Assembly: GCA_030867875.1 (NCBI GenBank)
Contig: JAOWCC010001501.1
Coordinates: 31,020,792-31,084,791, forward strand
Length of the DNA stretch: 64,000 nucleotides
Reading direction: 5' to 3'
Source of the DNA: Actinernus sp. WN-2022
Taxonomy: Eukaryota; Cnidaria; Anthozoa; Actiniaria; Actinernidae
Of this stretch, positions 21,501-62,788 are shown piece by piece. How positions within the stretch are numbered: position 1 is the first letter of the stretch; the number at the start of each line of letters is the position of its first letter. A program made the position numbers and the translations under genes. The notes beneath the pieces were generated by a model. The model saw only the letters and a list, made by a program, of their open reading frames with translations. It ran no database searches and was not told the origin of the DNA.

Positions 21501-23924
21501 TCTTTGAGTTATATAGAGATTTCTATTTCCAATATGGTAATTATGTGATGACGTTTTAGACGTAATGGCAACAACAGTGAGAATGTTGTTCAGTTGTCCT
21601 TGTTACAAGTCAATGTACCAATAATGAGTTGTTGGGTGTTTCTTTGGCAGAAATCGATGGATTAATAACCTGGAGAAAGCCGCTGATTACTTCATCGAGA
21701 CCGAGAGGTTCATGAGACAAAAGGCACATCGCAGTAAGTATTAGAATCTACTCATGGGTATTTATTCTCGACTTTAAACATCTTGAATCAAATGTAACAA
21801 TTATAATAATAATAATAGGCCATATTTATATAGCGCCATATCACCACAGTCTCATGGCGCTTTACATTTTACTGAAATACATTTTACACTGTTAATCGTT
21901 TTGAATCATCAGTTAAAAAAAAACGTTGATCCGATTGAACAATGAATAATGAACAAAACACATTGAACAATAATTTTCCGACCTTAAAGTGCATATAAGC
22001 CCTAGCCAGTTATCTTTGATATCGATTGTACATGAAGTGAATAGTCCAACGGTAGAATATTTCTTGATTTGGGTGTTGCGTCTATGAGATATAAAGGTTT
22101 ATATTTCCAATATGCTAATGATGTGATGTCATCACCGACATTTGCTGAATTTCTTTGTGCTTGTAAATTAAGCTATTTTCTAATTTAGAATTTTTTTTTT
22201 GTAAAATCACTTTGATAATTTGTCTCCACCAGCATGCTTTTGTATAATAAGTGATGTCGGTGATGACATCACGTCATTAGCATATTGGAAATATAAACCT
22301 TTATATCTCGTAGACGCAACACCCAAATCAAGAAATATTCTACCGTTGGACTATCCACTTCATGTACAATCGATATCAAAGATAACTGGCTAGGGCTTAT
22401 ATACACTTTAAACAGGAAGGCTATAGACCCATTCGAAAAATAGCGTCCAATTTAATTAACTATTGTTTAGTACTGACTAGACTCGCTTACACGTTCAAAA
22501 GCTTTTGTTTGTACTGACTAGCCTCGTGTTCACGTTACCAGAACAATAGCTTTTTAAATTGGACGCCATTTTTCGAATGGGTCTCACTGACACCTTTAGT
22601 TGTCACTCAGCCTTTGTGGACTGAACATCTCTGTGATGCTCCGCTTGACTGCTCCCTACTGATTGCTTATTGCGCGAAATTCAAATCAAACACGAGAATG
22701 TTAAACTTCATAGTAAGGACTACAGAGTTCGTAAACAGTCATAAAATACCGCCTAAAGTCTTTAATAAACAACTATCTTTCCTCTGTTCACTTTTTGATG
22801 ACTTGTTTGATTTTAAACCTTACAAATTTCACATTTTAGCAGGAGAGACTGATTCACTCGCCCACATTCTTCGCTGCTCTGAAATTTGAATTTCAAATTT
22901 CGAGTTCGCCATGCGCGAAAAGAGGAGGGGCTTGCCCTTTATACTGGAACTTCGTGTTTAAATGTGAGTTGGTAATATGATAAAACGGCACTCTTTGGTG
23001 GTGTCGTGATAAGCAGAATTAAGTCATTAGCGCCGTTTTATTTTATTGCACTTGCATTTATTTTACAAGTATATGCAGCAGGCTTACTATTTGGTTGTAT
23101 AGAGTGACTGCAATGACCGATTGCAATAAACCCTTGAATCATCATCTTATAGTCTATTAGATGCAAAGAAAGAGATGAAAATAAAATATTTAACGGCTCC
23201 TGTGCATTTTTTAATATTCTAGGAACTGCTTTACGGCTGTATAGACCTATCCCACGCAGCGGCCATCTTGGAATCAATCTATTGTTAATGCCTACCCAGC
23301 CTCTGTCTCAAATGTGTTCAACCGAGGCTGGATAAGCATTAAAGTGCCAATGAAATGAAAAAATGGATCCCGTTTTTATTTTATTTTATTAAATTCTAGG
23401 TTTCTCTTAGTCATTTTGTAGAAATAGAAATCACTTTGGAGAGCGCGAACACATTTTTTTTTCGTATCGAAGTCAGGCGGAATTGCCAAAATCTAGCGAC
23501 AATTTTTATGCCGTTAAAGATATGGTAATCACATGCGTGACGTCACAAGGTGTACTCATTTCTATTCGTCCCCATAAATACTACGAAATAAGTGCATTTT
23601 TGGCCAGTTTTTAATTTAAATATGTAATACTTTGGGAAACCTTGAAGATGGCCATATTTTTTGTAGAATCCTTGCAGTCGGCTTTGTGGATATAAATGCA
23701 CACACCTAGTGACGTCACGCATGTGATTAGCATATCTTTAACGGCGTAAAAATTGTCGCCAGATTTTGGCAATTCCGCCTGACTTCGATACGAAATAAAA
23801 TTATGTTCGTGCTCTCCAAATTGATTTTTAATTGCACAAAATGACTAAGGGAAGTCTATAATTTAATAAAATAAAATAAAAACGGGATCGATTTTTTTCA
23901 TTTCATAGGCACTTTAACAATATG

Positions 23925-23960
<36 letters not shown>

Positions 23961-35119: not shown

Positions 35120-35212
35120 ATGTCATCCAAGGTTCATCCGTCGATCATCACAATAAACCCGAAAGAACTTCGAGAAATACAAAAGATACATGAGCTGGGG
35201 AGAAAATACTGG
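35120..35212 (+). CDS. TMEM117: TMEM117 module 1, exon 1 (N-terminus)
   Basis: ATG at 35120, 31 codons (MSSKVHPSIITINPKELREI and onward to RKYW), donor TGG|GTAAGG in phase 0 matching exon 2. The N-terminus is not conserved in the family, so the assignment rests on phase, position and a good donor. An in-frame TAG upstream was not needed for the call. Confidence 0.65.
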
Positions 35213-38200: not shown

Positions 38201-41200
38201 ACATCTGCATTTGGCAACTTGGACTGGTTTCCATCAGAAATCGATCGGCTTTTACTTCATCGTTGGCAAGATCGGCCCTTTAATGAGCCAAAACATTTTG
38301 ATCAATAAAGAATGCAAAGAAATGATAAAATATTTTTTCTAAGACATCGTAAAACCAATAAAGTTCGTTCATCAGTTGATCGAGATAATTAATATGAATG
38401 TTGTGTTAGCAATCGAAATGACAACATATTGGCGTGTCATGTAAGCTGTGAGATTTCCCTATATGCTTGTTTCAATTGAAGACATTTTCTTTTTACCCCA
38501 TCCATAATCTAAGAATAGACCATTTTACTTAGCCTATATTTGTCGTGCTTATCTCAAATCCTTTAGGAAAAAGATTCTTTCTTCAAGAGATTTCCATATC
38601 AATGTATCTTCTCGTTCGTTAACAAGAAGTAAATGAAACAGTGCACGACGTGATCTGAACGTGATCTAAAATGAAGCAATAAAGATGGCGGCTTTTGCTT
38701 TTATCCACAATCCTTTGCACGCGAAAATCTTTAATCGCGGTAGAGAGTATACAAATCTAAAAACAATCCAGTACAACTGATGTTGCTAATACACTGTCAT
38801 AAAAGAGAACAGGGGATTTATACGTGTTATTTCGATTGTGCTAGGTTCGCAAGGGATTATGGTCAAATGCACAGCCGCCATCTTTTTTTCGTGCGATCTA
38901 AAATGGGAAATAAAACATGTTTTCATTTAAGTGGCCTTATAAACTATCCACATACTCGGGAAATCTGTATTGAATTCCGCAGCCTAAAGTAGATCTTCTG
39001 CGATACGAGGAAGAAGAAAAGAAAACTGACGTGCAGAGGTGGCGGTACTACCTGCGCCATCCCTGGCTTCGTATCTGTACAGCGTATCTGGTGGTGTTCT
39101 GTAACTTCCTGATCTTCGCTGAGGACCCCGTGTCACACAGTTACACTGAATGCACCATCGACTACATAGGAGATGTGTACACATTTGTGTTTGCAAGGTA
39201 AGGGCGATCTATGGATATACGTGACCCATTTGGGATTGCTGTGACGTGACCCATGTGGGATTGAACAGTTTAGACGGGCAACGTAAAACAATAAATACAC
39301 AGAACGATCGACAGAGCCCGTTTTATATGTGTGTTTTTTAAAGTAATATTCCGGGCGGTGCAGTAATGTGGCCAATACCTTTGTTACACTCTAATCACTC
39401 TGTGAGTGTAAAACATTTTACTAACTTAACTACATTTTATTTACCACAATTCACTCTTTTCACCTGGTGGCCATCTTGGATTCAAAGCGAGGCAATCCTT
39501 TGTTTTTGCCAGGTTAGCCTCTTTTTGACTATCCCTCACTACGAGGCTAACCTGGCAAAAACAAAGGATTGCCTCGCTTGGAATCCAGGATGGCCACCAG
39601 GTGAAAAGAGTGAATACACAGCTTTGGCTTTATTCTGTATAACGTTTTGTCAGTACGTTAGTCACGAGGGCAACCTATACTGGCAAGGTTACGCAGTAAT
39701 AAGAAAAATGGCAGATGCATGGTATCGATGCAACTGATGCAAGAGTTAAAGGTTGAAAAAAGGTGACTTTTAATTAAGACGAGAATATGGAAGATCAACA
39801 GCTAGAGTAGACTTGAATTATTTGACTCATTATTTACTACAACGGATAATTCAAGGAAAAATATCAAACTAATCCAAATATCCGGTGGGTGAAGGCGTAC
39901 AGTTGTACGGCCCCGCAAATGATCCCAGGCCCGCAAATGATCCCGGCCCGCAAATGATCCCGGCCCGCAAATGATCCCAAACTGATCGTCCCACAAATGA
40001 TCACGGCCCGCAAATGATCCCAAAATCGTCCCGCAAATGATCCCGGCTGAAAATATGAATGGGAACGGATTTTGGATTGCGAGACTATTCTGTTTGCAAT
40101 TCTTCGTATGGTTTTCTTATGCTTATTATCATTTTGCGTATATATTCAATAAAAAGTTTAGCTGGATTCCTTGAAAAATCTATCATAGTAAACTCAGCCA
40201 CAAACACTTGGAGTCTTTAGTCTACGTTTCACGCGGTACTTAGATAACAAAAAACATGTGCAATTTTTAGAAATCCAATTTACTGTATAAACGACCGTCT
40301 CAGCCTGCACTACGAAACGCTTGCGTAATATATAACTGATGATAACTTGTCGACAACAAATTAGTGGGTCGCCTGTGGTTTCGGCGGGAATCAACGCCTC
40401 GTAGGTGGTCTAGTTGTGTGACAGTTCCTTCAGTGTTTACAAATGCAAAATAGAGAAACCCTCGCTACTTCTTATTGTGCTATTGCTTATACTTGTCTGA
40501 GCGTTTCCTCGGTAGGAGATGAGGATGACAAAAAGAACAAGAAATTGAGAGCTTATAAATGATATTTCCAGTGTTCTTCGGTGGAATTTGCCGGTATTGC
40601 CTGTCATTGAACTACCACGTGCTTGCAATCTGCACAAGCCACTTTTGCACAGGTATATATGCAATTTGATTTGAAACCACTTGTCCAGTCAAGTAGGATA
40701 TTTTAAAATTTGGCCATACATAAGGAGTTGAACAACTGCTGAGACTAAATTGATACTGAAATTACTATAAATACAGAACCCTAGCTATAGCCTGGAGACC
40801 ACAAGCAAAGTACTGTAGTTAAGATAAGTTAACAAAGCCTCTCTAATAACTGATTTTCCATGTCTATAATATAAAGCTGAGTGCAGATACTTATATTTGC
40901 CAGTTTGGTTGCTGAACTGTCATGCTAGTTTTCTACACAGCAACAAAAATAGCTGTATTCCTGTATTCAGTGGAACCCCGTTATAACGGACACCGAAGGG
41001 ACCAGAGAAAGTGTCCGTACTAACGGGTGTCGCGGGTGTCCGTAATAACGGGATATTTTTTTACAGAAAATGGACATAGTTGAAAACTGCAAGTAACTTT
41101 GGGGTATCCGTAAGGCGGGGTTCCACTGTATATAATACCCGTGAGTATGGATTTTATCAATGGTTGTCATTGACGCCTGCGTTGCCGTTGCTGTATAATT

Positions 41201-44200
41201 CAAAATGATAGGTGTACAATTTTGTCATGATTACGCATCAAATTTACGCATATATTTACCAGTTTTATATTGCCGATGCGGCATTTGCCGCGAGGACGGA
41301 TTGTATGAATGTCATTAAACAGTCGTCAGCCCAAGACGTCATTAAACAGTCGTCAGTCCAAGACGTCATCAAACAGTCGTCAGTCCAAGACGTCATCAAA
41401 CAGTCGTCAGTCCAAGACGTCATCAAACAGTCGTCAGCCCAAGATGTCATTAAACAGTAGATAGGATTTCACAAAATTGTTGTTTGACTCTTTTTTTTTA
41501 TTCAATCAAAATAGGATAATCCCGACAACCTAGCTTAGGCTTTCTCTTGCTTTCTTGATATCTTTTAATATCTTAACCCCATGCCTGTGAAATGTTGGGC
41601 AAATCAACTAGCGGTGGTCGACTACAATGCTCCTCTTTTCATTACTAAACATGGCTCTCAAACAAAGGAGCTATAAATGCAATTTTAATTAAAAGTATCG
41701 TGTCAAACGTTTTCCGGAATAATATTCAAGGAGCCCAGGTTTTCCTATGTGTTTTGAGCGGGCTTGTTTTAATTTGAGCTTCTTTAAAAATACAGTAGAT
41801 TGATGATTTTACAAAGAAAGCGGCGTCTATTACTTACTAACACGTACTCAGAACATTTATTTTCGGATAACTATATTCATCATGCAGTGTATCCAGCCAA
41901 GTTTTTTTGATTGAAAAATATAAAAAAAGAAATGTATATATGCAAAATAAAATTATAAGCATAACATAAAAACATGTAGAATTCCAAATGAAGAGTCTCG
42001 CAATCCAAAATCCGTTGCCATTCCATATTTTCAGCTGGGATCATTTGCGGGAGGATTTTGGGATCATTTGCGGGCCAGGATCATTTGCGGGCCTGGGATC
42101 CGCATTTGCGGGGCCGTACAGTACTCCCATATATAAGCTATATCGGGTATGTGCCGCTCTAAAAAGTATGGGTTTCGAGCTGTTTTAGTCTGAAATAGGG
42201 TGATCAATTTTGCCTTTTTAGTCTGGAATGGGGTATGATTTTGACGTGGAAGTATAATACCGCACATGTTCATTTATTTCTCTTGTTATTTTGACACTGT
42301 TCTTCAAAATAAAATAAGAAGGAGAAATATAAACCACGGAGAAAACTTAGATTCGATAAAATGATTATATTTCCGCTTTAAGTGCTGCATGAAATAGGGT
42401 ACATAATTTCAGGTCAGGCCTGAAAAGGGTACGGAATATCATATATATTTTGGGTTGAAATAGGGTCACGGGAGACCCATGCGGTAAAACCCCAACCCCG
42501 GTCACCCCGGCTCCAAACAACCATCTCAAACATACCACACAGCTGCAAAGCACCGCTGATATAAGTACAGGTAATCATCCAACCTCGTTCCCATGGTCTT
42601 CTCGGTCAGATCCAAGATGGCGGGTACCCGAGAGAAGACCCTGGTAAAGGCTGGATCACGTGATCAAACACTCCCAGATTTTGGGAGTATTTTGTCACGT
42701 GATTTGGCGATCTAAGATGGCGGCCAAGCTAAATATGGGAATAGTTCATGACGTGTACAAACCATAGGTATCCCAATCCGGAGTGGGCGAGATGCGGTTA
42801 ACGGTATTTCCACGCGGCGAACGACGTAGTGAAAACAGGTCTGCTAAACGGTTCGAAATGGAGTTTACTTGGATAAAGAAACAGTGGAAGGGTATCACAA
42901 AGCTACCAGGATGTATCTATATAAGCTAGAAGAGAATCCTAAAAAGCCGTTCATTTTCTGTTAGCGTTGAAGCGAAGCGATCGATAGCACATGTTCAGAT
43001 TTAACGGCTTCTCCTAGCTTTACCACTGATGAAACTTACCAGAAAACTACCCAGTTATGCACTTCATCTATTGCTCTACCTACACAGCGTGTTTTAAGGT
43101 TATTTAAAATCGTTTTATTGATCAAATTTAAGCAATCGAATCTAAATACAAGCACCTCTCTGGACTCAGTCCGTTTGGCCAATAAAAAGCATTGTTAGAA
43201 CAACCCTTGCGTCATAATCGAAGAGCCAATCAGAATACGTGACAGTTCAGCCTTTACCAAGGTCTTCTCTCGGGTAGCCGCCATCTTGGATCTTACCGAG
43301 AAGACCCTGTGGACGAGGTTGGGTAATCATCTGAATTCGAATGCAATTCGGGATTAATTTGAACGAGTGAGATTTTCAAAGAGTATCGAAATTGCCTGAG
43401 CCCGTAGAGATCTTTGAAAAATCTCACGAGTTCAAATTAATCCAGAATTGCACGAGAAAGCCATATGATTACTTGTTAATAATGTTCATCCGCGTATTTG
43501 TGCTTTTTGTCGTGATGTTATTCAAAGATTTTGCTTCAGTTTTTCAACTTCTCCCGGCTGTAAATGTGGAAATCTCTCTTTGTTAATGTTCTACATTGTT
43601 TCAAAAGTTTGGAAACACCGCCGCCTCTCAGTTGATCCAATTCATGAGTTCTGGTTGGATATAGTTTGTTCACATTTGAGGTATTACATGATTTGGCACT
43701 CAGGTATTACATGATTCGGCACTGGTATTACAGCTATTATATCTCAGCCAATCAAATTTGAGAACTCGTTACATGTATATATTATAAGTCACAGAAGAAC
43801 TGATTGCACTCTACAGGTATCCCACGGGCTCGTTCGTACTTGTTAAACTCGTTGCATGTATATTATAAGTTAGATAAGTCACATAAGAACTTATTGCACT
43901 CTACAGGTATCCCACGGGCTCGTTCGTACTTGTTAAACTCGTTGCATGTATATTATAAGTCACATAAGAACTGATTGCACTCTACAGGTATCCCACAGGC
44001 TCGTTCGTACTTGTTAAACTCGTTGCATGTATATTATAAGTCACATAAGAACTGATTGCACTCCACAGTTATCCCACAGGCTCGTTCGTACTTGTTAAAC
44101 TCGTTGCATGTATATTATAAGTCACAGAAGAACTGATTGCACTCCACAGTTATCCCACAGGCTCGTTCGTACTTGTTAAACTCGTTGCATGTATATTATA

Positions 44201-47200
44201 AGTCACAGAAGAACTGATTGCACTCCACAGTTATCCCACAGGCTCGTTCGTACTTGTTAAACTCGTTGCATGTATATTATAAGTCACATAAGAACTGATT
44301 GCACTCTACAGGTATCCCACGGGCTCGTTCGTACTTGTTAAACTCGGTACATGGCTGTTCGCCGTTGGTCTTGGTATGCTGATCGGCAAGTATATTGTTC
44401 ACAAATGGCTATTTTGTCACAAGTTCAAGCTAAAGATATTTACAGAAGACGGCCAAGGTTCATGGATGATCATGTTTCTTACATGTCTGATGTCACTGTA
44501 CATATTCAGGTATTATGACTGTTAGTATTACGTATGCTATAAATATTATATTTCAGCCAATCAGAGTTCAACTACTATATCGCAACTCCGCCGTCGCAGT
44601 GCAGTTTTCCGTTGTTGTTGTTGGGCGACCATCTTGGATTTAACAATGGCAACTCAGATATCCATCCCAGAGTGCACTGCGACGGCGGAGTTGCGATATA
44701 GTCTATACATAGAGGTTGTTAGTCGTCTAAGTATCTAATACGGCTGTGTATTTTTACGAGTCGTGCGTATTTTGGTGAGCCAAACTACGAATGACGAGCA
44801 AAAATACAGCCGTATTAGATGCTTAGCCGACTAATAAGTTATTTATTATATAAATTCTGCAAAGAAACGATATTTTCTTTCCATAATAACCAAAACCCAT
44901 GCACGCGCTCGAGAAATGGGATTTACCATATATAGTGATTGGTTTACCGTATATGGTGATGGTTTACCATATATGGTGACGGGAAGCCATTTTAACGTAT
45001 ACATGCCATTTCATGCAGTGTAACTACCCGAAATACGGTCTCATATTTGGTGCGTTCTTGCCAGAATTATATAATAAAGGGCGGTATTTCATTTTTTTCT
45101 ATGAAATACATAGCGGTATTTCATGGCTAGATCAGGCCAATCAAAATGCAGCAAATTTCGCGCCCTTTCTTTATCAGCCAATAAGAATTCAAGATTTTGA
45201 ATACATAATTAGTCTGCAGACGCATTCGCCACTCGAAACTTTTGTTTTCCGGCGAGAAAATCGTCGTCATATGATAAATCTTCCCGTAAATTTGTTTTTA
45301 TAGGATAATATTTTTATTTCATGGTTTTCTGTGGAATACTGGCGAATATATTTCACGAGAAATTTGTATTATTTGGTATACCAAAATAATATGAATTTCG
45401 AGTGAAATTTTCGCCGGTATTCCATAGAAAACCATGAAATAACCAGTAATTACCCTATAAATATTATATTTCAGCGAATCAGAACTCAGCATTTGTTATG
45501 AAATACAGAACGGTATTCCATGCCTAGACGAAGCCAATCAAAATGCAGGAAATTTCGCGCTATTTCTTTTTCAACCAATCAGAATCTAGAAATTTCAATA
45601 CATAATTAGTCTCGAGACGCAGCCGCCACTCATGACCGTTGGCTTCAAAGAAAATGTCAAAAAAATCTTAATGGCTCTCTTTCCGAACACAAAATAGATA
45701 TACCAATTTCTTATATATAGAATAATATTGTTATTTCATGGTTTTCTTATGGAATATGGGCGAAATATGGGCGAGTACTGTATTTCCGGCCACTGCTACT
45801 TCGAGTTATTTTAATCTTCTACAAGTGTTTCTATTTCTTTATAAGATAAGCGAGTAAAAATACGGGAAAATGCACGCTTTGTGGTGATCAAAATGTAAAT
45901 TCTCCCAACTACTCAAGCGCGCGCAACTTTCATGTTTCTGTACAGTCATAGAAATACGGCTTTCAGCCAGGGACAAACTACATCTCCGTAGCCTTACCGT
46001 AACTGTACTATAACTTGCTGTACGATGACTCTGTCATTTGATTGGATCAGCAGGACAACAAACAATAGGGAAACCGTTTCAATGTCACTGCCTGTCGTAC
46101 AGTAACCGTGCCGTAAGTCATTGCCGTAATACGAAATCTGCGCTATGTACTCTATGTACTCTATGACCCCAATGAAGGTAAAATGTCGTGTTCATAACTT
46201 TCGTCGAGTGACGGGTATTTTTAAAGTAAAGTAAATCAACTTTACTTAACGTCGGTAACTCGTGGCAGTTTCGTGAGACTGATAAACTTGAGGCCGACGT
46301 GTGACCTACGATTTTACGTCCTTATCCGAGAAGACGTGAAGGTCTAACCATTTGCAATTCAAGGACGAGAACGTTTCACAAAGGTATCACCTTCAACTCA
46401 GGTATTTTAAGACCTGCATTGTTGGTCCGGTTTGAACCCGCGACCTCCCGCAGAGCTTAACCACTGAGCTATCCGCAACATAATCAATTAATGGCGTATT
46501 TTGTTATGTATGACAGCTTTGCGTATAACGGGTTTCTGATGCTGGAAGGCAAGTACATGGACAAGTTACACGCTAGTAGCCGCATGTCAATGGAGAACCA
46601 GTCATTCATGAAGCTGGCGGCAATGGGGACGTGGATGGGTGACTTTATTACCGCATGGATGGTCACTGATATGATGTTACAGGTAACGCACGACTCTGAA
46701 TTTCTAACGAGACCTGAAACCATAGGGGCTGATCAAAGTCAGGACCCGGCTAATTCACAGATCGAATTGGAATTGAGCGCGTTGTTTTTTTTGTGGAGGG
46801 AGGAAAACCGGAGAACCCATCAACAAACTCAACTCACATGTGGCGCCGCGAATCCAACCCTAGTCACAGAGGCGAAGCGCGTAACCACTGCGCAACCCCG
46901 ACTCCCCGACACACATCTTTATCGCTACTCATTCAACCAGTCTCCGGATATATTTCTGATATTTCTATCATATAATATCAAAATTCCAACTAAATACTCA
47001 TGAAGGTCAATCATATACTCAGCACGGTCTTGGATATGCATACTGCTGCTCTTCATATATATTACTGATACGTTGATGTTTGGTATAACGCTGATATAAC
47101 AAACATTATCCTAAACGCATTTTCCATAAATCTATGTGGTATTTAGAACATGATTGAGTGGTCATGTTATATCGGCATATAAAGATTTAGATCCGATATA

Positions 47201-56200: not shown

Positions 56201-59200
56201 GAGCAAACGCAAAACCAAAGTCGACACTCAATCGAAATCCGCTCTTATACTGTCAACTCGTATTACAACGGACATCTTTTGGGACCGCGATTTGGTGTCT
56301 TTAATAAAGACAGTCTGTAATTCACTCTTTTACAAAGCGAGATTATCTTCTGTCATCCTCCTTCATCGTGTCTGTAATACAAACAGTACCTATAACCCTC
56401 CACCCCTGTGTTTTTTCTCTCTGTGTCAGGTATCCCCCTCATGCAGGATTTGTTGTACTGAAGGTGTTCATGTTCATCGTGTCTGTCATAACTGGAATGA
56501 TTGTTGGCAAGTTCTTCGTGCACAAGTTTCTGTTTTGTCGCGTCTTTAAACTAAAGCTGTTCTCCGAGGAAGGACAGGTTAGTAATTGACGCGATCAGTT
56601 GTCAGTGCTTTACATAGCCTACGTGGCAAGCGCTGGGGAGGGGGAGCGGAGGAGGAATGGGGAGAGAAACGAAAAGGGAAGGGAGCGCTTGCAGCGTATT
56701 TTTTTTGCAGTATTTTTCCTTTCATTTTCAGTGTCGTCTGACATTTGACATCTGTCAAAATCAACCAATCAGCTTCTATCTGTTATTTGACCTTGCCGGG
56801 AAAGTTCAAGTGAATCTGAATCCCCCTCCCCCTCCCCCTCCCCCTCCCCCTCCCCCTCCCCCTTCGCCTTCCCCTTCGCCTTCCCCTTCGAGTCACCCTT
56901 CACATCGTCTTCATCAGCAGTTTACATGAAATATTCAAAATGGCGGATGGACTATTACATACCTATAATGACGAGATGTTTTCCGTATAATAATTGTTCA
57001 CCGTACAACTGAAGCATAATACTCACAACAACGATAACTACAGGTTAAGTAACAGATACAGAATTCGTGGCCGTGCTTTATGGGATTTACAAACTCGAGC
57101 TGGAAGCGAGAATCCGATAAAGCATGGACACGAATTCTGTATCTGTTATCAAACATATAGATGCATAGAGTCATGTTTTCAGTTATTTTGCTGATACGAC
57201 TTATTTTGGGCGAGAAAATCGAAGCAAAAATTTATGTAAATCAGGACGAAATCTGTATCAGATTTACAGATCGTTATCATTTATCGCTCAGTGATTTCCT
57301 TTGTTTTTGCTTCATGAATTATTAATGAGTTCGATAATGGTCATTAATCATTCACTGGTGACACAGGGTTCATGGATGGTGATGTTTCTCATGGTTCTGG
57401 TGTTTACCTTCAACTGGAGCTTTTGCTACAATGAGTTCCTGTTACTTGGGGGCCCGCAGTACATCCCATACAAGGTCAGCAGTAATATGGGCATTGAGAA
57501 TCAAAACTTTATGAAGGTAGCTGCTATGGGAACGTGGTTCGGTGACTTCATTACTGCTTGGATGGTTACGGATATGATGTTACAGGTAGGAACTGCTGTA
57601 AACAGTACTAGAGACAGATGAGGAATCACTCTTTTCACCTGGTGGCCATCTTGGATTAAAAGCGAGGCAATCCTTTGTTTTTGCCAGGTTAGCATCGTTT
57701 TGACTATTCCTCACTGCGAGGCTAACCTGGAAAAAACAAAGGATTGCCTCGCTTTGAACCCAAGATGGCCACCAGGTGAAAAGAGTGAATTAAAAAACTG
57801 TTCAGTATCTTTAGAGCTTTTTCGGAAAATATTTGCCCTTCGTTGTCTCTTTTCCGTGTTTTTTTTTTGTTTTGCCCATTTTCAACTGATGTTGTTCTAT
57901 ATCCTTTACTGACTAAATATGATGTTACACTTAACAACAAAAGTGTACACAAGTAAAGTATGCGTTTGAAAGACTTCACAGATGAACACATAGCCTTATA
58001 AGAGCAACTAGCTATATAGAGATTGCGCGTGGCCTAGCCTGTTCTCCGACCGTATGGATAACCAATGTAATAGCTAGATTTGACCCCTTACCTTAATCTG
58101 CCTGCATAAATCTGCCCCGATATCGCGTTTCGAGACGTTGTTATACCTGCTAGGGTAGAACAGTTCTTTCCATTGTTGTCACTGTTTCAATGTGCTCTGT
58201 TTTGCCCTGGTTTGGCTATGTTTTTCCACTTATAAGGCACGAATTGCAGCAAATTATCAAAACATTCATATATTTTTGGGGGTCAATAAAAGTTCCTTTA
58301 CAAGAATAATAAGGTTGGGAAGAAGTCAAAAGGAAAATAGAGTACCGAGGTCTCACGCGTCGGCGTGGAAGCCGTGTAATCTGAGAAACTAATTTATCCC
58401 ACATTGATAACACGGTATTGGACCTATTATGCAATTTCCCACACTTGTCATAACGGAAAAAAACAGATCTATTTTTTTAATTAATAAATATTGCTGTTTT
58501 TAAATGTTCGCCCATCGTTCTATGTCACGTGTATGGGACCTGTGTGGTCAACCTTTGCTAGTGACTATTCAAATAACGTTTTGACTGCACGAGATATCAT
58601 TGTTTTAGTGAAACGATTTCTACACATCTAGCTGACCAGTATTGCGTGACTCAGGAGTTTTACATTTATCTGATTTATGTTAAGCGGATTGCCCCTCCCC
58701 GCTGCGTCCAAGGTTCAAATCCCAAATGCAGTGAAACGTGAGTTAAGCTCAGTATTGATAGACTTGCTTCGAGGTTTTCATGCTCAATTCAAATGCGATC
58801 TACGATTTGGCCGCCTCCCTAATTAGATATTCCGATGGTGCTCTCCAGATCCTGTTATAATTCTCACGCCCGGGGGGGGGGAGGGGGCTGTGTAGGACAC
58901 CACCCTTTAGTTTAGGACCCTGTTTAGGACAAGTGACAAAATACAGACTATCTTGTTTTACACAATTTTCAAGTGTTTTATTGGCAATTGCAATTATGCA
59001 AATCAAAAAGGCTCTGAAATGATCTGATGTTGCCTGATGACCTGTTAAAGACCAGTGAGACCAGGATAATCGTACAATCAATACCCTGTTTAGGACATGT
59101 TCAGACCCTGTTTAGGACAGACTCGCATGAAATTATATACCTTGTTCAGGACAGAGAGGCCAAAAACCGTATCCTGTCCAGCGGCACGTCCCCGTATAAG

Positions 59201-62200
59201 CGATATAAGGGAGTACCCCCCCCCCCCCCCCTTCCCGGATTCTCACGTAACGGGTAATGAAAGGGTTTAAACCTCAGCGATGGAGCCTAAATTGCTTCTT
59301 TGTATATTTGTTTATTTTTATCGGAAATGTTACGTGATCAGGCTACAATCTTGGACAATATGAGTTGGGAACAAAATTCCCAACTCCCCCCGTTTCAGTA
59401 ATGATAGCGTGGCCAAACTGAAATGGAGGTTATGCTTAACATCACTGAAATAGGGGGAAGGGAAGGTCTTAATTGTTCAACTAAGGTGACCAAGAGCTTT
59501 GATACCTAGTTGGTATAAACAACTCGGCTAAGTGCTTCGCATATGGTGATTTCATAATGGATAGTGCCGTATGAAATTGGCTAAAATAATGAATAATAAT
59601 TACATGTCAAGTCGAAACAAATCACCCCCACATGTATTAAAAACGCAGGCGTTGACAGAAATAATCAGGGTTTCTTGCTAGTGCGGATAGGCCCTTACTT
59701 ACCAAATCATATCTCGTTTGGCTATGGCTTAAGTATGAAAGGTTTTGATATCATCTGATACTGCGTGACGTATCGTTATTACCTGACGCGCTGCGTGACT
59801 GTTTATTTCAGGAAACTCAGTACGAGTGGTGGAGTCCGCGCCTGAGGGTTTGGTGGCGGCACGGTATGAACCGTGTGTATGCATTCTGGGGCGTGGCAGT
59901 GTTCATGACGATAGTGGTTTGTACCGCCATTACCACTGACTACCTGGACTGGGACCGGATCAGTAATGACTTCATGCCGACCAATGAGGTGTCCAGGGCA
60001 TTCTTAGCATCGTTTATTCTGGTCATGGATCTGCTCATTGTTATGCAGGTATATCCCCCACCCGACCCCCACCCCCGCTTGTTTCGCCCTAAATTGAATG
60101 GTTAATGAATATAGACTATATCGCAAAACCGCCGTCGCAGTGCACTCTGGGATGGATATCTCAGTTTTTCATTGCTGTTGTTGGGCGGCCATCTTGGATT
60201 TAACAATGGGAACTGAGATATCCATCCCAGAGTGCACTGAGACGGCGGGATTGCGATATAGTCTATGGTAGAACTGTTGACGAAGTCTTTGGGTGAAGAC
60301 GAAAGCTCCTGAAGCTGCTTTCAAAAGTATTGTGTATAGTTACAAAACGTTTTAAATTTCACTAATAATTAATCACCTACACAGATGAATTTTCATGGAA
60401 CATCAATGGTTAATCATTAATTACACATGTATACCCAAGGGAGGGGTGGGTGGGTAGTTTCCCAGAAACCGTGATTGATCCATAATGATTGACAGTTAAT
60501 AACAGTTTTAAACCAACGAGCATTCCTAACGATGCTCCAAAAGGCATGCAAGGAAACAGTTTTGTATAGGCCAATCCTTGCTGACGTCATTAAGCTTCAA
60601 GCTACAAACAAACAGACTACATCAGTTGAAAGAGAATTTTAAACTTAGTAATCACCGAAAATTCGAGATTGATATATTAAATATTTACGGAGAAATTGAC
60701 TTTTCAAAACTGTAAAATGGGCTGTATGATAGGCAAGAGTTGCTGACAGCCATACGTTCATACATTCTTTGTAAATTTTGAGATTTTTAAACGGTCATTT
60801 CTCAAAATGTATTTATCATATCATTCTCAAATTTTCGGTGATTATAAAGTGTGACAATCTCTTTCGATTTATGGACTCTGTTTGTTTGTATGTACGTCGC
60901 TTGAAGTTTGATGTATGCTAATGAGGAAAAACATAGACAAAGATTCGCCTATATATAGACCCTTTCATGCAGCTTGCCTGTTTTTGCCCCATTTCAGACC
61001 ACGTGATAGTTCTTCAGAGGATTCAGTGCTTTGTTTTCTAGTTATTGTAATTAGTACATTTCCTCTTGGGATACAGAAAAACAAAAACGCACTACTCAAG
61101 GGAAAAGTCACGTGGTCTGAAATGGGGCAACAAACAGGCAAGCTGAAAGGGTCTATTGTGCAAGGTTGTCAGATGATATTTGCTTTCCGTGGGCTTGCAT
61201 GCAGGTTTAGTTATTAACTGGCAATTAATATGTGTGCTTCAGGTCTCCAGAACTAGTTCAGAAAATAATAACTTGTGTAGTGATCGATTGAAAAATGATG
61301 GAAAAGTAAATTGGCCAATCAAATGTAATATATATATTTTTTATTTCATGGCAGGATTGGGAGTTCCCATATTTTGCCGGTGGTATGGACATCAAGTTAC
61401 CCGGTATTAATACTGGCGATGTTAGTTTTAAACTCCCGGGTGGAGAGGTACATATTACTGGCAAATGGTTTAACTATGGAATTATTTTCATTGTCATGAT
61501 TCTGGACTTAAACATGTGGAAAAACCAGATTTTCTATGACCCGTATGTTTACGGACAGTATACAGACAAGAACGACTACATCTACACCGTCTCTGATAAG
61601 GCCTGGTTAAAAAACGCCACTCGTGAAACTCTGACCTACGTTTGGCGGTGGAACAATACTGATCCGCTGACCAGTACGTTTTACGGGCTCCAGGATCATC
61701 GCATGAATTCTAAGTATTTGAACTATCCTCTTAGTGTTAAAGGAATTGCGTTTGGTCCTTCTATAACGGCATTTGTTGTGTTTGGGTATTTGGCGAAGAG
61801 ATTTTCAAGGGAGGAAGCAGAGGAGAAGATGACAAAGGTAGATGATCTACAGCCGGTAAAATCAGAGGAAGACTGGGACTTGCCTGATGAGAGCGACGAA
61901 GAAGACGGCGATATCAGCCGGTCAGCGGCTCTTGGTAGAAGAGGACGTCAAGAACTGAACGGCGCAGTTTTGAATGCCATGAGAAACACGAGAGGGGATA
62001 CGACTGGTGACCGAGGTCCCAACAATGGTGAAGCAATAGAAGACAGTTTACGAGATGAAGACCTGCCAAATGTCTGCTTAGGCGGTGAAAGAAGTAAAAC
62101 AATGGTAGACATTGTAATGATGAAGAGAGCTTCAAAACGCTGGCATCACCGAGCGGTCGCCAGGAGAACCTTGTCAACTTTGAGTATTGGCAGCTCACAA

Positions 62201-62788
62201 GATAGTCCTGCTAGTTCTACAGAGGATGTCAGGAACGCACGAGATCGCCACGTGATATCTCCACTTAGTCTAGACAGTTCTCACAGTGACGTCAGAGGCT
62301 CTATCGGTGACGTCACTAGGGCTGTGCGTGGCAAACACGATGAGCAGGCGAGCAGTTCATTCTTTTCTGCAAGTGATCTTGTGGCGTCTAGCAGGCATGT
62401 CACTGCGAGTAATGACATCTTACGCTCGCCCGCGGCGTTAGATTCCGGGGAAGAGAGCGATCCACCGAAGGAACTCTCTTTTTCTGAACTCCAGAAGGAT
62501 AATTCGAAAAATCGTGAAAATGCTCAAAAGAACTGGGATAAACTAAAACGACACAAGGAACTGTCCATTGGCGATCTTTTTAGAGTTGAGCCCAAAAAGT
62601 CTGGTTCCCACATCTCCGAGGGATCTTTGCATACTTCGTCGGATGAGGAGACTACTGCTCGCGAATTATCTGGTGGTGTTTCTCCTATCACACATGCGCG
62701 CCAATCGAGGGAGTGGCCAAAACCTTCTGCTATTAACTTACTTCAAGTGCCGAGGAAGAAAGGACGAACAGTCAAATCAGGGCCTTAA
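35120..62788 (+). CDS. TMEM117: Tandem TMEM117-type membrane protein (two modules), gene span
   Basis: Twelve exons join in matched phases to 1293 residues. Module 1 is residues 1-508 and module 2 is residues 509-1293. Each module repeats the whole TMEM117 plan: a YYLRHPxLR...FLIFAEDPVSHS first membrane span, a YPxG...GK second span, GSWM third span, MGTWxGDFxTAWMVTDMMLQ, a TTDYLDWDRIS loop, ASFILVMDLLIVMQDWEFP, and GKWFNYGIIFxVMILDLNMW with a last span. About eight spans per module are expected from hydropathy. TMEM117 family proteins are usually about 500 residues with one module. The vertebrate member has been linked to ER-stress cell death; the molecular activity is unknown. Alternatively these are two adjacent genes, but module 2 lacks a visible start. 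Family identity is certain; the fusion is likely but untested. Confidence 0.85.
35561..35930. repeat. Tandem duplication of a 186-bp segment
   Basis: Two nearly identical copies start at 35561 and 35747 (TGATTCGTATGTTTTGGGAT). Each contains AATAAA (ATAAAAATAAAGATT) about 100 bp in. Only a few differences separate them, so the duplication is recent. Confidence 0.9.
36238..36343. mobile_element. Hairpin MITE (TAGACTACGAG ends)
   Basis: TTAGACTACGAGCTCG is mirrored by CGAGTAGTCTAAACC. The inner arms ATCGGCTGCTAGTTGAC and GTCAACTATCAGCC pair. A half copy (TTAGTCTACTCGCTC) sits near 14690 in the intersectin-like gene. Confidence 0.6.
36441..37088. repeat. Stacked tandem duplications containing hairpins
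   Basis: A 94-bp unit (TATAGTTCACCACAA... CACGTGACGTGATAGTTG) occurs twice from 36441, then a 230-bp unit (TAGTGCCCGCTGAGCACG) occurs twice from 36629 and 36859. Each 230-bp unit is itself palindromic: AAATTTGATGTTCTTAAAAC pairs with GTTTTAAGAACATCAAATTT around a TCGAACTTCGTTCTCGGGC loop. Confidence 0.85.
37416..37920 (+). pseudogene. Non-LTR retrotransposon 3' end fragment
   Basis: The open frame 37416-37694 encodes KLNLVVCPRFKRETEGGRSF, then STTRFWNTIPNEIKRKPSL and FKKAMFEYFF. The R-x-F...R-F-W-N-x-(I/L)-P and S-F-K-x-x-(L/M) pattern is the C-terminus of LINE polymerase ORFs. Upstream RT motifs are missing. The 3' tail has AATAAAG and ATT-rich repeats. It differs clearly from the fragment at 31302-31765. 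Confidence 0.8.
38683..38890. mobile_element. Imperfect inverted-repeat element with AAGATGGCGGC ends
   Basis: AAGATGGCGGCTTTTGC at the left and GCACAGCCGCCATCTTT at the right face each other. Inside, ACAATCCTTTGCACGCG pairs with CGCAAGGGATTATGG. It ends about 95 bp before the module 1 exon 2 acceptor. Confidence 0.55.
38983..39197 (+). CDS. TMEM117: TMEM117 module 1, exon 2 (first membrane span)
   Basis: Acceptor TTCCGCAG, donor AG|GTAAGG, phases 0 to 2. After an acidic-basic stretch (RYEEEEKKTDVQRWR) it encodes the family signature YYLRHPWLRICTAYLVVF with the following FLIFAEDPVSHSYTE. The alternative acceptor at 38989 would put TAG in frame and is excluded. Confidence 0.95.
39450..39615. 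mobile_element. Palindromic MITE family G, copy 1
   Basis: Nearly perfect palindrome. CACTCTTTTCACCTGGTGGC and CATCTTGGATTC through CTTTGTTTTTGCCAGGTTAG are mirrored to the right with about 15 bp of loop. A second copy is at 57628-57790 in the corresponding gene but a different intron. Confidence 0.9.
40965..41135. mobile_element. Nested MITE with CAGTGGAACCCCG ends
   Basis: CAGTGGAACCCCGTTATAAC is mirrored by GGCGGGGTTCCACTGTATA, and GTGTCCGTACTAACGGGTGT occurs inside. TA-type borders and the CAGTGGAACC-like terminus resemble pogo/Tigger-derived MITEs (inference). It lies inside the 39900-42125 element. Confidence 0.7.
41316..41458. repeat. 27-bp tandem repeat, about five units
   Basis: GACGTCATCAAACAGTCGTC units with an AGTCCAA spacer. 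The period is divisible by three, so it reads as a VIKQSSVQD repeat in one frame, but there is no ATG and no context for a gene. Confidence 0.9.
42570..43330. mobile_element. TIR element of about 760 bp with AAGATGGCGG near both ends
   Basis: GGTAATCATCCAACCTCGTT is mirrored by GACGAGGTTGGGTAATCATC. The inner arms TCCAAGATGGCGGGTACCCG and CGGGTAGCCGCCATCTTGGA pair, followed by GAGAAGACCCTGGTAAAGGC and its complement. It is non-coding. Confidence 0.8.
43333..43448. repeat. Inverted repeat next to the 760-bp element
   Basis: ATTCGGGATTAATTTGAACG is mirrored by GAGTTCAAATTAATCCAGAA, with AGTGAGATTTTCAAAGA and TCTTTGAAAAATCTCAC inside. Confidence 0.75.
43767..44311 (+). repeat. Tandem array of a splice acceptor plus exon 5' end (81-bp units)
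   Basis: Copies of the start of module 1 exon 3 (CTCTACAG then GTATCCCACGGGCTCG) occur at 43817, 43907, 43988, 44069, 44150 and 44231; the seventh, at 44312, continues into the real exon. The period is 81 bp (first 90). Each unit holds the acceptor and 13 exon codons, then diverges into GTTGCATGTATATTATAAG, which gives an in-frame TAA. Copies 4-6 read CTCCACAGT instead of CTCTACAGG. Confidence 0.95.
44312..44509 (+). CDS. TMEM117: TMEM117 module 1, exon 3 (spans 2 and 3)
   Basis: Phase 2 in (AG|G) and phase 2 out (TTCAG|GTATTA). It encodes YPTGSFVLVKLGTWLFAVGL, GMLIGKYIVHKWLF and EDGQGSWMIMFLTCLMSLYI. It spans both the GQ-GSW boundary, where module 2 has an intron, and extra sequence beyond. 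The acceptor is the last of seven tandem copies. Confidence 0.93.
44572..44706. mobile_element. Palindromic MITE family H, copy 1
   Basis: TATATCGCAACTCCGCCGTC is mirrored by GACGGCGGAGTTGCGATATA. The interior has GGGCGACCATCTTGGATTTA. A second copy is at 60114-60267. Confidence 0.85.
44722..44836. repeat. Inverted repeat (TCTAATACGGCTGT arms)
   Basis: AGTATCTAATACGGCTGTGT is mirrored by ACAGCCGTATTAGATGCTTA. Confidence 0.75.
45075..45740. repeat. Two diverged direct copies of an about 250-bp repeat
   Basis: Blocks such as CCAATCAAAATGCAG, AAATTTCGCGC and AATACATAATTAGTCT appear in the same order near 45140-45230 and 45535-45625. ATTTCATGGTTTTCTGTGGA and its complement also occur between them, so the unit has hairpin character. 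Confidence 0.65.
45968..46143. mobile_element. MITE family I, copy 2
   Basis: GGGACAAACTACATCTCCG on the left and CCGTAATACGAAATCTGCGC on the right, with the family core TTTGATTGGATCAGCAGGAC. Its ends are more decayed than those of other copies. Confidence 0.65.
46221..46480 (-). mobile_element. tRNA-Val-like SINE, family A (reverse copy)
   Basis: Minus-strand mirror of the SINE at 63501-63776: AAAGTAAAGTAAATC at its 3' end, GACGTGAAGGTCTAACCA in the body and CCGGTTTGAACCCGCGACCT (complement of the B box) in the tRNA head. It ends only 36 bp upstream of the module 1 exon 4 acceptor. Confidence 0.9.
46517..46682 (+). CDS. TMEM117: TMEM117 module 1, exon 4 (spans 3-4)
   Basis: Acceptor TATGACAG, donor CAG|GTAACG, phases 2 to 0. 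It encodes FAYNGFLMLEGKYMDKLHAS, then MAAMGTWMGDFITAWMVTDM-type sequence (LAAMGTWMGDFITAWMVTD). The C completing Ser gives IFSFAYN, close to vertebrate TMEM117 at this point. Confidence 0.95.
46735..46908 (-). mobile_element. tRNA-derived SINE, family B (reverse copy)
   Basis: AAAGTCAGGACCCGGCTAAT begins it, and GCGCCGCGAATCCAACC with GCGCAACCCCGACTCCCC ends it. It lies 53 bp after the exon 4 donor, with the second SINE family just left of the same exon. Confidence 0.75.
47465..47640. mobile_element. MITE family I, copy 3
   Basis: GCAGATTTCGTATGAGTGGG is mirrored by GTGCCACTCAGTACGAAATT. The interior is CGTACTGCATGCCGTGACAT, then CTGCTGATCCAATTAAATTA. Confidence 0.75.
47808..48127. mobile_element. 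MITE family J, copy 2
   Basis: Starts AAAGTGCAAGTAGCGCC and ends ATACTTCCACTTT. It shares AATATACTTCAGTTGTCTAA and GAATTGCGGGATTGATTAA with the copy at 17608-17986 in opposite orientation. Confidence 0.7.
48835..48955. repeat. Inverted repeat (TTAAATACCGAGAACG arms)
   Basis: AAATACCGAGAACGGAGGCA and AATAAGC are mirrored by GCTTATTGCCGACGTTCGAG and GTATTTAAG. Confidence 0.7.
49172..49268. repeat. Near-perfect 90-bp palindrome
   Basis: TTATAAATGCAAGGGATGTA, TGAGAAACGTTCCCGGG and ATGTATCC meet their exact complement with almost no loop (centre ATCCGGAT). Only one base differs between the arms. Confidence 0.9.
49335..49478. mobile_element. Inverted-repeat MITE (AACCGGAAGCAGCTG ends)
   Basis: TTTTTAGGAACCGGAAGCAG is mirrored by CTGCTTCCGGTTACTAAAA. 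The centre includes CATGGCGGCAAAATATTTTC. Confidence 0.75.
49628..49864 (+). CDS. TMEM117: TMEM117 module 1, exon 5 (spans 5-6)
   Basis: 79 codons, phase 0 on both sides. It encodes KYPDWGQAVRAVWNKGLNRV, ISTDYLDWDRISRDFMPTNE and TSFILVMDLLIVMQ. It is the same length as its module 2 counterpart (59812-60048). The acceptor TCTCACAAG is the only AG that keeps the KYPDWG peptide in frame. Confidence 0.95.
50036..50372. mobile_element. MITE family C, diverged copy
   Basis: Right arm features shared with family C: GGCCTCCTGTGACGTCACAT, GTCATAGACGCAACACTCAA and a GGGCTTATAGGCACTTTA terminus. The left arm (CACAGGAGGCCTAATT) is weaker. Confidence 0.65.
50454..50728 (+). CDS. TMEM117: TMEM117 module 1, exon 6 (span 7)
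   Basis: Acceptor TTCTTAG, donor AAG|GTATTA in phase 2. It encodes DWEFPHFSGALDVKLPGVNT, then ITGKWFNYGIIFMVMILDLN and GYIYTVSDKQFLR. In module 2 the same region continues without an intron. Confidence 0.95.
50735..51110. mobile_element. Nested MITE family I copies forming a whole intron
   Basis: The intron 50729-51118 begins after AAG|GT and ends in AAG|GT. A forward half copy (GTTGATTGGATCAGCAGG to CACGGCATGCCGTG) lies at about 50770-50827, a full copy at about 50832-51034 (CAGATTTCGTATGAGTG to CCCACTCATACGTAATCTG), and a reverse half copy follows (GCATGCAGTAACATTGAAAT to TTTTTGATCCAATC) to about 51095. Fewer than about 60 bases at the two edges are not MITE-like. Confidence 0.85.
51119..51458 (+). 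CDS. TMEM117: TMEM117 module 1, exon 7 (last span and basic tail)
   Basis: Phase 2 in, phase 0 out with a perfect donor ATG|GTAAGT. It encodes TYEWRWNHMNPKTNRTFGSD, LAFVPSLVTFCLFGYLLWLL (span 8) and a strongly basic tail (RRERQLKRIRRKKRRQAKLK). If the donor is used it joins 52856 in frame. If not, VSFITRA and TGA (51480-51482) follow, giving a 515-residue protein, the usual TMEM117 size. Confidence 0.92.
51954..51959 (+). terminator. Candidate intronic poly(A) signal after module 1
   Basis: AATAAA lies 472 bp downstream of the read-through stop at 51482 and before the module 2 acceptor. It could end a short, single-module transcript. The hexamer alone is weak evidence. Confidence 0.3.
52150..52765. 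mobile_element. TIR element filled with an AACATGGCACAACATGGTTC array
   Basis: TAGACTGCTAGCAAGTCCCT and GCTATTCCGCTAAT (left) pair with ATTAGCGGAATAGAGGG and ACTTACAAGCAGTCTA (right). Between them, about 450 bp (52217-52665) consists of 10-bp AACATGG(C/T)NN(A/T) units, roughly 45 in all, arranged mostly as 20-bp pairs. The element lies in the intron that joins the two modules. Confidence 0.9.
52856..53175 (+). CDS. TMEM117: TMEM117 module 2, exon 1 (linker and first span)
   Basis: Acceptor GATCGTAG, phase 0 in; donor AG|GTGAGA, phase 2. In frame, TAG immediately precedes the exon and no Met occurs until its last codons, so it cannot initiate translation. It encodes an acidic linker (FLLEDDEEPQEVQTKEEEKE) and then YYLRHPYLRIVTAYLVVFCN and FLIFAEDPVSHSYTD. 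Confidence 0.93.
53676..53840. mobile_element. MITE family F, copy 2
   Basis: ATAGACCCATTGCATAAATG mirrors CATTTATGCAACACGATGTG. Inner blocks GGCGTCCAATTTCAATAAC and TTTAAATTGGACGCCATTT match copy 1 at 22428-22585. Confidence 0.75.
54051..55319. mobile_element. Giant foldback element with 560-bp arms
   Basis: Arms 54051-54610 and 54760-55319 are the same length with no net indel and almost complete complementarity; I noted one clear mismatch (GAATTGCATGG against GAATTGCGTGG). The loop is about 150 bp. Both arms can be read as the same 80-codon frame without ATG (RFDGYPAAFDGRAVDPSWFK), possibly a captured exon or transposon remnant; I do not recognise the family. In RNA it would form a very long hairpin. 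Confidence 0.95.
55633..55820. mobile_element. Inverted-repeat MITE (AATTGCGATCAGTTTGAGAC ends)
   Basis: GAGACGCCGATACCGAATTA and TATTGCCGGC pair with GCCGGCAATA and TAATTCGGTATCGGCGTCTC. Inner arms AAAATATATTTTTCGTATTG and CAATACGAAATATATTTTCT also pair. Confidence 0.85.
55947..56247. mobile_element. MITE family E, copy 2
   Basis: TTAGAGCGGTTTTCAGTTCA at the left, CACTCAATCGAAATCCGCTC at the right, and the same CCAAT-rich interior as 24180-24521 with one unit instead of three GATGGCG(T/C)GATG repeats. Confidence 0.8.
56430..56577 (+). CDS. TMEM117: TMEM117 module 2, exon 2 (span 2)
   Basis: Phase 2 in, phase 0 out (CAG|GTTAGT). It encodes YPPHAGFVVLKVFMFIVSVI, TGMIVGKFFVHKFLF and LKLFSEEGQ. 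It aligns with the first two-thirds of module 1 exon 3. Confidence 0.95.
56820..56892. repeat. CCCCCT and CCCTTCG microsatellite
   Basis: Seven or more TCCCCC units followed by CCTTCGCCTTCCC variants, in the module 2 intron. Confidence 0.9.
57048..57155. repeat. Inverted repeat (CAGATACAGAATTCGTG arms)
   Basis: ACAGATACAGAATTCGTGGC and GTGCTTTATGGGATT are mirrored by CCGATAAAGCATGGACACGA and ATTCTGTATCTGTTAT. Confidence 0.8.
57367..57585 (+). CDS. TMEM117: TMEM117 module 2, exon 3 (spans 3-4)
   Basis: 73 codons, phase 0 on both sides. It encodes GSWMVMFLMVLVFTFNWSFC, NMGIENQNFMKVAAMGTWF and GDFITAWMVTDMMLQ. No intron occurs at the IF-S position that splits this region in module 1. Confidence 0.96.
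57628..57790. mobile_element. Palindromic MITE family G, copy 2
   Basis: AATCACTCTTTTCACCTGG and GGCCATCTTGGATT are mirrored at the right by CCAAGATGGCCACCAGGTGA and AAAGAGTGAATT. It begins 42 bp after the exon donor. Confidence 0.9.
58840..59235. repeat. Region with TTTAGGACA repeats and G/C homopolymer ends
   Basis: Several GTTTAGGACA or CAGGACAGA motifs lie between a (G)9-GAG-(G)5 run at about 58873 and a (C)16 run at about 59216, with CCAGATCC...ATTCTCACG at the left and ATTCTCACGTAACGGG at the right. It is probably a degraded inverted-repeat element. Confidence 0.5.
59812..60048 (+). CDS. TMEM117: TMEM117 module 2, exon 4 (spans 5-6)
   Basis: 79 codons, phase 0 both sides. It encodes YEWWSPRLRVWWRHGMNRVY, ITTDYLDWDRISNDFMPTNE and ASFILVMDLLIVMQ. 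Confidence 0.97.
60114..60267. mobile_element. Palindromic MITE family H, copy 2
   Basis: ATAGACTATATCGCAAAACC and GCCGTCGCAGTGCACTCTGG are mirrored by CCAGAGTGCACTGAGACGGC and GGGATTGCGATATAGTCTAT. The centre holds GGGCGGCCATCTTGGATTTA. Confidence 0.9.
60404..60482. mobile_element. MITE family B, partial copy
   Basis: The right half only: GGTTAATCATTAA, CCCAAGGGAGGGGTGGGTGG and AAACCGTGATTGATCC, as at 2175-2260. Confidence 0.65.
60598..60912. mobile_element. Inverted-repeat element of about 315 bp
   Basis: CAAGCTACAAACAAACAGAC and AATCACCGAAAATTCGAGA on the left pair with TCAAATTTTCGGTGATTAT and GACTCTGTTTGTTTGTATG on the right. Confidence 0.65.
60955..61157. mobile_element. Inverted-repeat MITE (TATAGACCCTTTCA ends)
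   Basis: TATAGACCCTTTCATGCAGC, TTGCCTGTTTTTGCCCC and ATTTCAGACCACGTGA are mirrored by TCACGTGGTCTGAAATGGGG, CAACAAACAGGCAAGC and TGAAAGGGTCTAT. Confidence 0.85.
61355..62788 (+). CDS. TMEM117: TMEM117 module 2, last exon (spans 7-8 and long tail)
   Basis: 477 codons plus TAA. The first 150 or so residues are conserved: DWEFPYFAGGMDIKLPGINT, ITGKWFNYGIIFIVMILDLN, LTYVWRWNN and FYGLQDHRMNSKYLNYPLSV with span 8. The remaining roughly 320 residues are polar, acidic and Ser-rich with basic patches (LGRRGRQ, KRASKRWHHRAVARR), hydrophilic throughout and probably disordered and cytosolic. Such a tail is longer than that of vertebrate TMEM117. The codons have no stops across 1.4 kb, so the tail is under coding constraint. 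Confidence 0.97.
   Translation, partial: DWEFPYFAGGMDIKLPGINTGDVSFKLPGGEVHITGKWFNYGIIFIVMILDLNMWKNQIFYDPYVYGQYTDKNDYIYTVSDKAWLKNATRETLTYVWRWNNTDPLTSTFYGLQDHRMNSKYLNYPLSVKGIAFGPSITAFVVFGYLAKRFSREEAEEKMTKVDDLQPVKSEEDWDLPDESDEEDGDISRSAALGRRGRQELNGAVLNAMRNTRGDTTGDRGPNNGEAIEDSLRDEDLPNVCLGGERSKTMVDIVMMKRASKRWHHRAVARRTLSTLSIGSSQDSPASSTEDVRNARDRHVISPLSLDSSHSDVRGSIGDVTRAVRGKHDEQASSSFFSASDLVASSRHVTASNDILRSPAALDSGEESDPPKELSFSELQKDNSKNRENAQKNWDKLKRHKELSIGDLFRVEPKKSGSHISEGSLHTSSDEETTARELSGGVSPITHARQSREWPKPSAINLLQVPRKKGRTVKSGP

Follow-up and report, generated by a model that had tools for sequence, protein, structure and literature searches.

The window, a stretch of 64,000 nucleotides from Actinernus sp. 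WN-2022, carries two copies of the TMEM117 family plan (PF15113). They are read here as parts of one gene, in which splicing of twelve exons is predicted to yield one two-module TMEM117 protein of 1293 residues, a covalently linked, unequal pair. The probability of this reading is put at about three in four. The open frame of twelve exons, the membership of both modules in the family, their conserved residues and the charges of the linker are direct observations, whereas we infer the splice between 51458 and 52856, the membrane topology, the pairing of the modules and any activity. The two-module protein is likely a real variant of the known TMEM117 family.

Gene structure

The exons were rebuilt from their splice sites. 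All 12 are GT-AG exons on the forward strand (35120-62788) and join in frame to an ORF of 1293 codons that closes with its only stop. This reproduces the coordinates and the count of the first-pass annotation, which had described two complete copies lying head to tail, twelve exons and 1293 residues without a frame break. Exons 1-7 form module 1 (508 residues), and exons 8-12 form module 2 (785 residues plus the stop).

Exon 1 (35120-35212), obtained from the rebuilt splicing, holds the start methionine and the N-terminal tail of module 1 (31 residues) and ends in a phase-0 donor. A similar start is present in the Orbicella record P0035. Exon 2 (38983-39197), defined by splice sites and translation, encodes TM1 of module 1, and exon 3 (44312-44509), defined by splice sites, encodes TM2 and the start of TM3. 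Exons 4 (46517-46682) and 5 (49628-49864) match PF15113 in the frames 46461-47000 (E 4.8e-23) and 49436-49951 (E 5.1e-35), respectively. Exon 6 (50454-50728) carries TM7 (frame 50454-50732, E 1.3e-45). The last exon of module 1, exon 7 (51119-51458), comprises the remaining TM7-TM8 loop, TM8 and a basic tail (frame 50982-51479, E 1.2e-27). Module 2 begins with exon 8 (52856-53175), an acidic linker followed by TM1 (frame 52856-53176, E 1.3e-24). Exon 9 (56430-56577), defined by splice sites, encodes TM2. Exons 10 (57367-57585) and 11 (59812-60048) match the profile in the frames 57295-57618 (E 6.3e-36) and 59749-60102 (E 6.7e-39). Exon 12 (61355-62788) contains TM7, the loop with its glycosylation motifs, TM8, a long polar C-terminal tail and the stop (frame 61310-62785, E 3.2e-68). 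Similar last-exon ORFs to exon 12 are present in the database; none was found in viral contigs and none in bacterial and archaeal contigs, as expected of an animal gene.

Family membership and age of the pair

The Pfam scan covered eight exon-bearing frames, those of exons 4-8 and 10-12. PF15113 was matched in 8/8 frames with E-values from 4.8e-23 to 3.2e-68 and scores of 82.2 to 231 bits, versus a Pfam gathering score of 27 bits. Profile positions 1-54 and 82-411 are covered by module 2, positions 114-410 by module 1. Each module carries all 50 family-invariant residues (50/50), the invariant columns having been defined from an alignment of 93 family proteins. The piecewise profile match and the complete set of invariant columns are shared with the single-module TMEM117 family, e.g. 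human TMEM117 (Q9H0C3), and so are the two glycosylation-type motifs per module in the TM7-TM8 loop. Known TMEM117 members consist of a single module; here two are predicted in one chain of 1293 residues with a charged linker of 102 residues between them. The C-terminal tail of module 2, about 320 residues long, is also unlike that of known single-module TMEM117. Where those members have one module of about 500 residues, the open frame of the window has two, provided that the junction is spliced; the single-module length characterises the known members but is not required for membership in the Pfam family.

An alignment of the two modules over 433 columns gives 62% identity. Three introns are common to both, namely one before the R of RYP (phase 2), one after MMLQ (phase 0) and one after IVMQ (phase 0). 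Two inner introns of module 1, between F and SFAYN and between L and RWAN, are absent from module 2, and one inner intron of module 2, between GQ and GSW, is absent from module 1. The N-terminal tail of module 1 holds one extra intron. The identity of 62%, the three differing inner introns and the 50 of 50 invariant residues in each module argue for an old duplication and against an assembly echo. Both halves of this old duplication are under constraint.

Tandem arrays in and around the locus might suggest an artefact, i.e. a segment falsely repeated in the assembly or annotation, or a recent duplication now in decay. This explanation deserves hardly any credence. A recent duplication or assembly echo was discarded in view of the identity of only 62% and the three differing inner intron positions, and the full set of invariant residues in each module speaks against the artefact as well. 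Moreover, both module types are found again in other records. Among the records compared, the closest to module 1 comes from Nematostella (81% identity over 421 columns), the closest to module 2 from Actinostola (64% over 449 columns), which points to a likely anthozoan source, probably a sea anemone.

Junction between the modules

The last exon of module 1 ends in ATG at 51458, followed by the donor GTAAGT, and the first exon of module 2 begins at 52856 with AAC after an acceptor AG. Both sites are in phase 0, and both were confirmed in the sequence, together with the in-frame stops just upstream of 52856 and the lack of an in-frame methionine before TM1 in exon 8. The phase-0 donor and acceptor predict a junction intron of 1397 bp (51459-52855, forward strand). 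Among all forward-strand GT dinucleotides, only 0.26% score as high as the donor at 51458 with a generic donor matrix. Two phase-0 sites agree in frame by chance in one of three cases; the phase match is therefore weak by itself, and the case for the fusion rests on the comparison with relatives. A minisatellite with a 20-bp period and 23.7 copies lies within the junction intron (52210-52663, forward strand).

If the junction intron is not spliced, the frame runs into a stop seven codons past the donor, giving the tail VSFITRA. Poly(A)-type hexamers follow in the intron, ATTAAA at 51797 and AATAAA at 51954. These features would suit two separate tandem genes, in which module 1 reads through the donor to the stop and module 2 uses its own unrecognised promoter and first exon, perhaps inside module 1. 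The coral record P0035 from Orbicella is annotated in this way, and Hydractinia P0138 is annotated as a single-module protein as well. Exon 7 contains in-frame methionines at 51210 and 51456, which could possibly start a separate module 2 message from a promoter inside module 1. Between the modules (51459-52855), a search for an exon with an ATG and a usable phase-0 donor returned no candidate at donor cut-offs of 3.7, 6 and 7.5, the lowest being about the weakest donor in the gene model. A separate start of module 2 in this interval was set aside on these grounds. Exon 8, in turn, offers no methionine before TM1. The acidic stretch preceding TM1 of module 2 (PEILDPFLLEDDEEPQE) resembles by eye a stretch of the Actinostola record P0121 (TDVLDAAFFLDDADDEPKE), which also lacks a methionine. 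This counterpart indicates that the stretch is likely translated.

In seven relatives, Orbicella P0035 and the ORFs P0037 and P0039-P0043, the last exon of module 1 stays open beyond the position of the donor. By position after the basic tail, V-S stands in 7/7 at the place of the GTAAGT of the window, a correspondence set by eye, as MAFFT does not bring the V-S of every row into the same column. In P0037 and P0039-P0043, similarity to the window ceases to be clear at least about 10 residues before V-S; in Orbicella P0035 it reaches to within three residues of it. The residue just before V-S is R or W in all seven, not M. Past V-S, the tails of P0035, P0037 and P0039-P0043 measure 24, 65, 61, 68, 65, 61 and 69 residues, respectively. 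There, P0039 and P0042 fit a shifted-frame reading of the same DNA as P0037, P0040, P0041 and P0043, the compatible stretches being 12 to 26 residues long, whereas none exceeded 7 residues in 60 control pairs of unrelated sequences. The six ORFs are near-identical, and this comparison draws on protein sequences, not on the DNA of the relatives. The shifted-frame tails suggest that the stretch past V-S is likely not coding. An intron would then begin at V-S, and the exon would splice on instead of ending there. Since the frames of the relatives vary in length and frame past the donor, the stop in this region does not represent a conserved gene end. We infer that the donor of exon 7 is conserved in the relatives. 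With the varying frames past the donor, the R or W in the place of the methionine at 51456, and neither a start exon between the modules nor a methionine in exon 8 before TM1, two separate genes are an unlikely arrangement.

One gene might also form two products: retention of the junction intron, with cleavage of the transcript inside it, would give a short module 1 protein, and splicing of the intron would give the double protein. The strong donor adjoining an in-frame stop and the poly(A)-type hexamers downstream are in line with such a choice, and the read-through form appears in the coral model P0035. The short tail is, on the other hand, conserved neither in sequence nor in length. Two products are a possible, yet rather doubtful, outcome; they are compatible with the spliced double protein and not opposed to it.

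A third arrangement resembles an operon. The modules would be co-transcribed, and a trans-spliced leader would cap module 2 at 52856, yielding two proteins. Exon 8 starts at an acceptor and no first exon of its own was found nearby; leader trans-splicing is known in Hydra. As exon 8 has no methionine before TM1, the leader would have to supply the start codon, and to our knowledge no such leader has been described in anthozoans. In addition, the Clytia record described below has both copies in one protein. An operon-like pair is thus very improbable.

The first-pass annotation had proposed a tandem in-frame fusion and had added that the family would work as a dimer. The fusion stands as the best-supported reading, given that no start exon of module 2 was found between the modules, that module 1 has no conserved stop in the relatives, and that Actinostola and Clytia have joined or double records. 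The dimer part found no support in titles and abstract openings, in solved folds or in the Clytia double model.

Topology and linker

For human TMEM117, PMC4938508 gives eight predicted TM helices, a C-terminus measured to lie in the cytosol, and glycosylation of the TM7-TM8 loop. PMC10550824 names six TM regions for TMEM117. A hydropathy scan of the window protein located seven segments in each module. The AlphaFold model of the module 1 relative P0035 (pLDDT 84.0, pTM 0.77) contains eight helices of membrane length; the basic tail lies in an additional long helix (466-509). The TM7-TM8 loop has two N-X-S/T motifs in module 1 and two in module 2.

With an even number of helices, a second copy can follow in the same orientation. 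In the proposed fusion protein, each module would cross the membrane eight times and both start and end in the cytosol, the side on which the C-terminus of human TMEM117 was measured to lie, and the whole protein would have sixteen membrane helices. Both module ends being cytosolic, a cytosolic linker could join the two copies without inverting either. It would tie the modules to each other in a constant 1:1 ratio, with the long polar C-terminal tail of module 2 as the single large arm in the cytosol.

The linker spans 102 residues from TM8 of module 1 to TM1 of module 2. Its first half (51315-51458, forward strand, 48 residues) is basic with a net charge of +12, and its second half (52856-53017, forward strand, 54 residues) is acidic with a net charge of -12. 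Only 11 of 20000 letter shuffles reached this charge split. The Clytia linker is likewise basic, then acidic (+11, -4), with the boundaries as chosen in this analysis. As a guess, the linker may fold into a charged hairpin clamping the modules.

Joined and single records in other cnidarians

Three protein searches were evaluated. The whole-protein search scored 4559 candidates of 711 to 2262 residues, of which the best 34 are listed; the module 2 search scored 7992 candidates, 255 of which passed and the best 120 of which are listed; the third scored 390 candidates. The matches listed total 216. By the count of family motifs, only P0121 and P0122 (2/216) are two-copy proteins among the matches listed. 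No module 2 of Nematostella occurs among them. Gene catalogues may split or drop double proteins, given the two doubles among these 216 matches.

P0122 from Clytia hemisphaerica (UniRef A0A7M5UJW0) is 936 residues long and contains two TMEM117 copies; its match extends over 97% of a query region of 900 residues. It shares with the window protein two copies in one record and the order of basic and acidic linker halves. It differs in its second copy, which is strongly diverged and has 34/50 invariant residues, compared with 47/50 in the first copy. This suggests that the second TMEM117 copy of P0122 is a degenerate partner half.

P0121 from Actinostola (hypothetical protein QZH41_003212, 1102 residues) consists of part of module 1, followed by module 2. 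The order of the modules and the acidic linker without methionine agree with the window, while module 1 is incomplete and a peptidase M20 domain is inserted in module 2. Counterparts of exons 1-3, 5, 7 and 11 are missing. P0121 is probably a faulty gene model, and hence it is evidence for the physical order of the modules and not a proven fusion.

The peptidase M20-type domain of P0121 lies between exons of module 2, perhaps as a gene nested in an intron or as a model error. The window intron matching this site (56578-57366) is only 0.8 kb long. In a further record, P0216 (eukprot, 1336 residues), a TMEM117 domain is joined to the ion-channel domains PF00520 and PF07885, which may reflect a merged gene model or hint at a function.

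In a tree of 25 rows, a branch with support 98/99 separates eight rows from other cnidarian and bilaterian TMEM117. They comprise module 1 (M1) and module 2 (M2) of the window with their kin from Nematostella, Orbicella and Actinostola, the first and second Clytia copies (Clytia A and B), and Hydractinia P0138. This proposed cnidarian two-module TMEM117 group branches apart from the single-module TMEM117 of the tree (98/99). It includes records annotated as single-module proteins (P0034, P0035, P0138) and is therefore a kinship group, not proof that each member is double.

In the best tree, the M1 and M2 types of the window group together (79/73), as do Clytia A, Clytia B and Hydractinia (89/84); neither grouping is firm. 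The alternative groupings, in which Clytia A goes with module 1 or Clytia B with module 2, were not rejected (AU p 0.19 each), and Clytia B forms a very long branch. Because M1 groups with M2 and Clytia A with Clytia B in the best tree, the doubling in Clytia may be a separate event. By these trees, the doubling would either be ancestral to cnidarians or have happened twice.

A last-exon tree of 66 rows placed 34 ORFs (P0001-P0033 and P0038) outside both the module 1 group (80/97) and the single-module group (98/89). They lie near module 2 of the window, without a supported clade with it. Their position suggests that genes of the module 2 type are likely widespread, probably in anthozoans.

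Relation to dimeric membrane proteins

Two-domain channels and transporters are internally duplicated membrane proteins. The fusion in the window resembles them in the tandem in-frame duplication and the fixed pair of units. It differs in that no PDB match links TMEM117 to a dimeric channel fold. The notion that TMEM117 works as a dimer is drawn from the architecture alone, as none of the PDB fold matches stands out, no solved relative was found by sequence, and the second half of the AlphaFold model of the Clytia double protein (P0122) is not confident.

In the TMEM117 literature, including anoctamin, vasopressin and dimer contexts, titles and abstract openings contain no mention of a two-module TMEM117, and no title concerns TMEM117 pairing or a dimer. 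A search for TMEM117 with Clytia returned no literature, and one for fused covalent dimers in general nothing useful. No paper on TMEM117 in cnidarians was recognized by title or abstract opening in a broad search, in which a mention elsewhere in a text could exist. A molecular activity of any TMEM117 member was not encountered in the portions of the literature searched. Work on Tmem117 in AVP neurons (Gaspari 2023) is among the references of PMC10789691.

Tentatively, and with considerable doubt, TMEM117 might be an obligate dimer that cnidarians have hard-wired into one chain, perhaps twice. Both halves would have stayed conserved in anthozoans, and the second half would have decayed to a regulatory partner in hydrozoans. 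TMEM117 is present across animals, and a natural double protein with two conserved halves would argue that the modules work side by side. If the Clytia doubling was independent, as weakly suggested by the best tree, the case for pairing grows. If the fusion is true, the double protein is a ready-made concatemer for testing the uncharacterised TMEM117 family.

Other features of the window

An 81-bp tandem array (43763-44353, forward strand) lies before exon 3 and extends into it. Its copies at 43817, 43907 and 43988 repeat the exon 3 acceptor and the first 35 nt of the exon, either exactly or with one change. Use of any of these three upstream copies leads to an in-frame stop after 17 codons. 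They are possible decoy or poison acceptors.

Upstream of the gene, open frames in the region 18048-25872 match RhoGEF (18048-18341, E 3.3e-8) and C2 (25519-25872, E 1e-16) domains. They resemble the end of an intersectin gene. Each module contains one intron frame (39342-39734 and 57622-57909, respectively) of a shared repeat-like element, the two being 87% identical over 54 amino acids.
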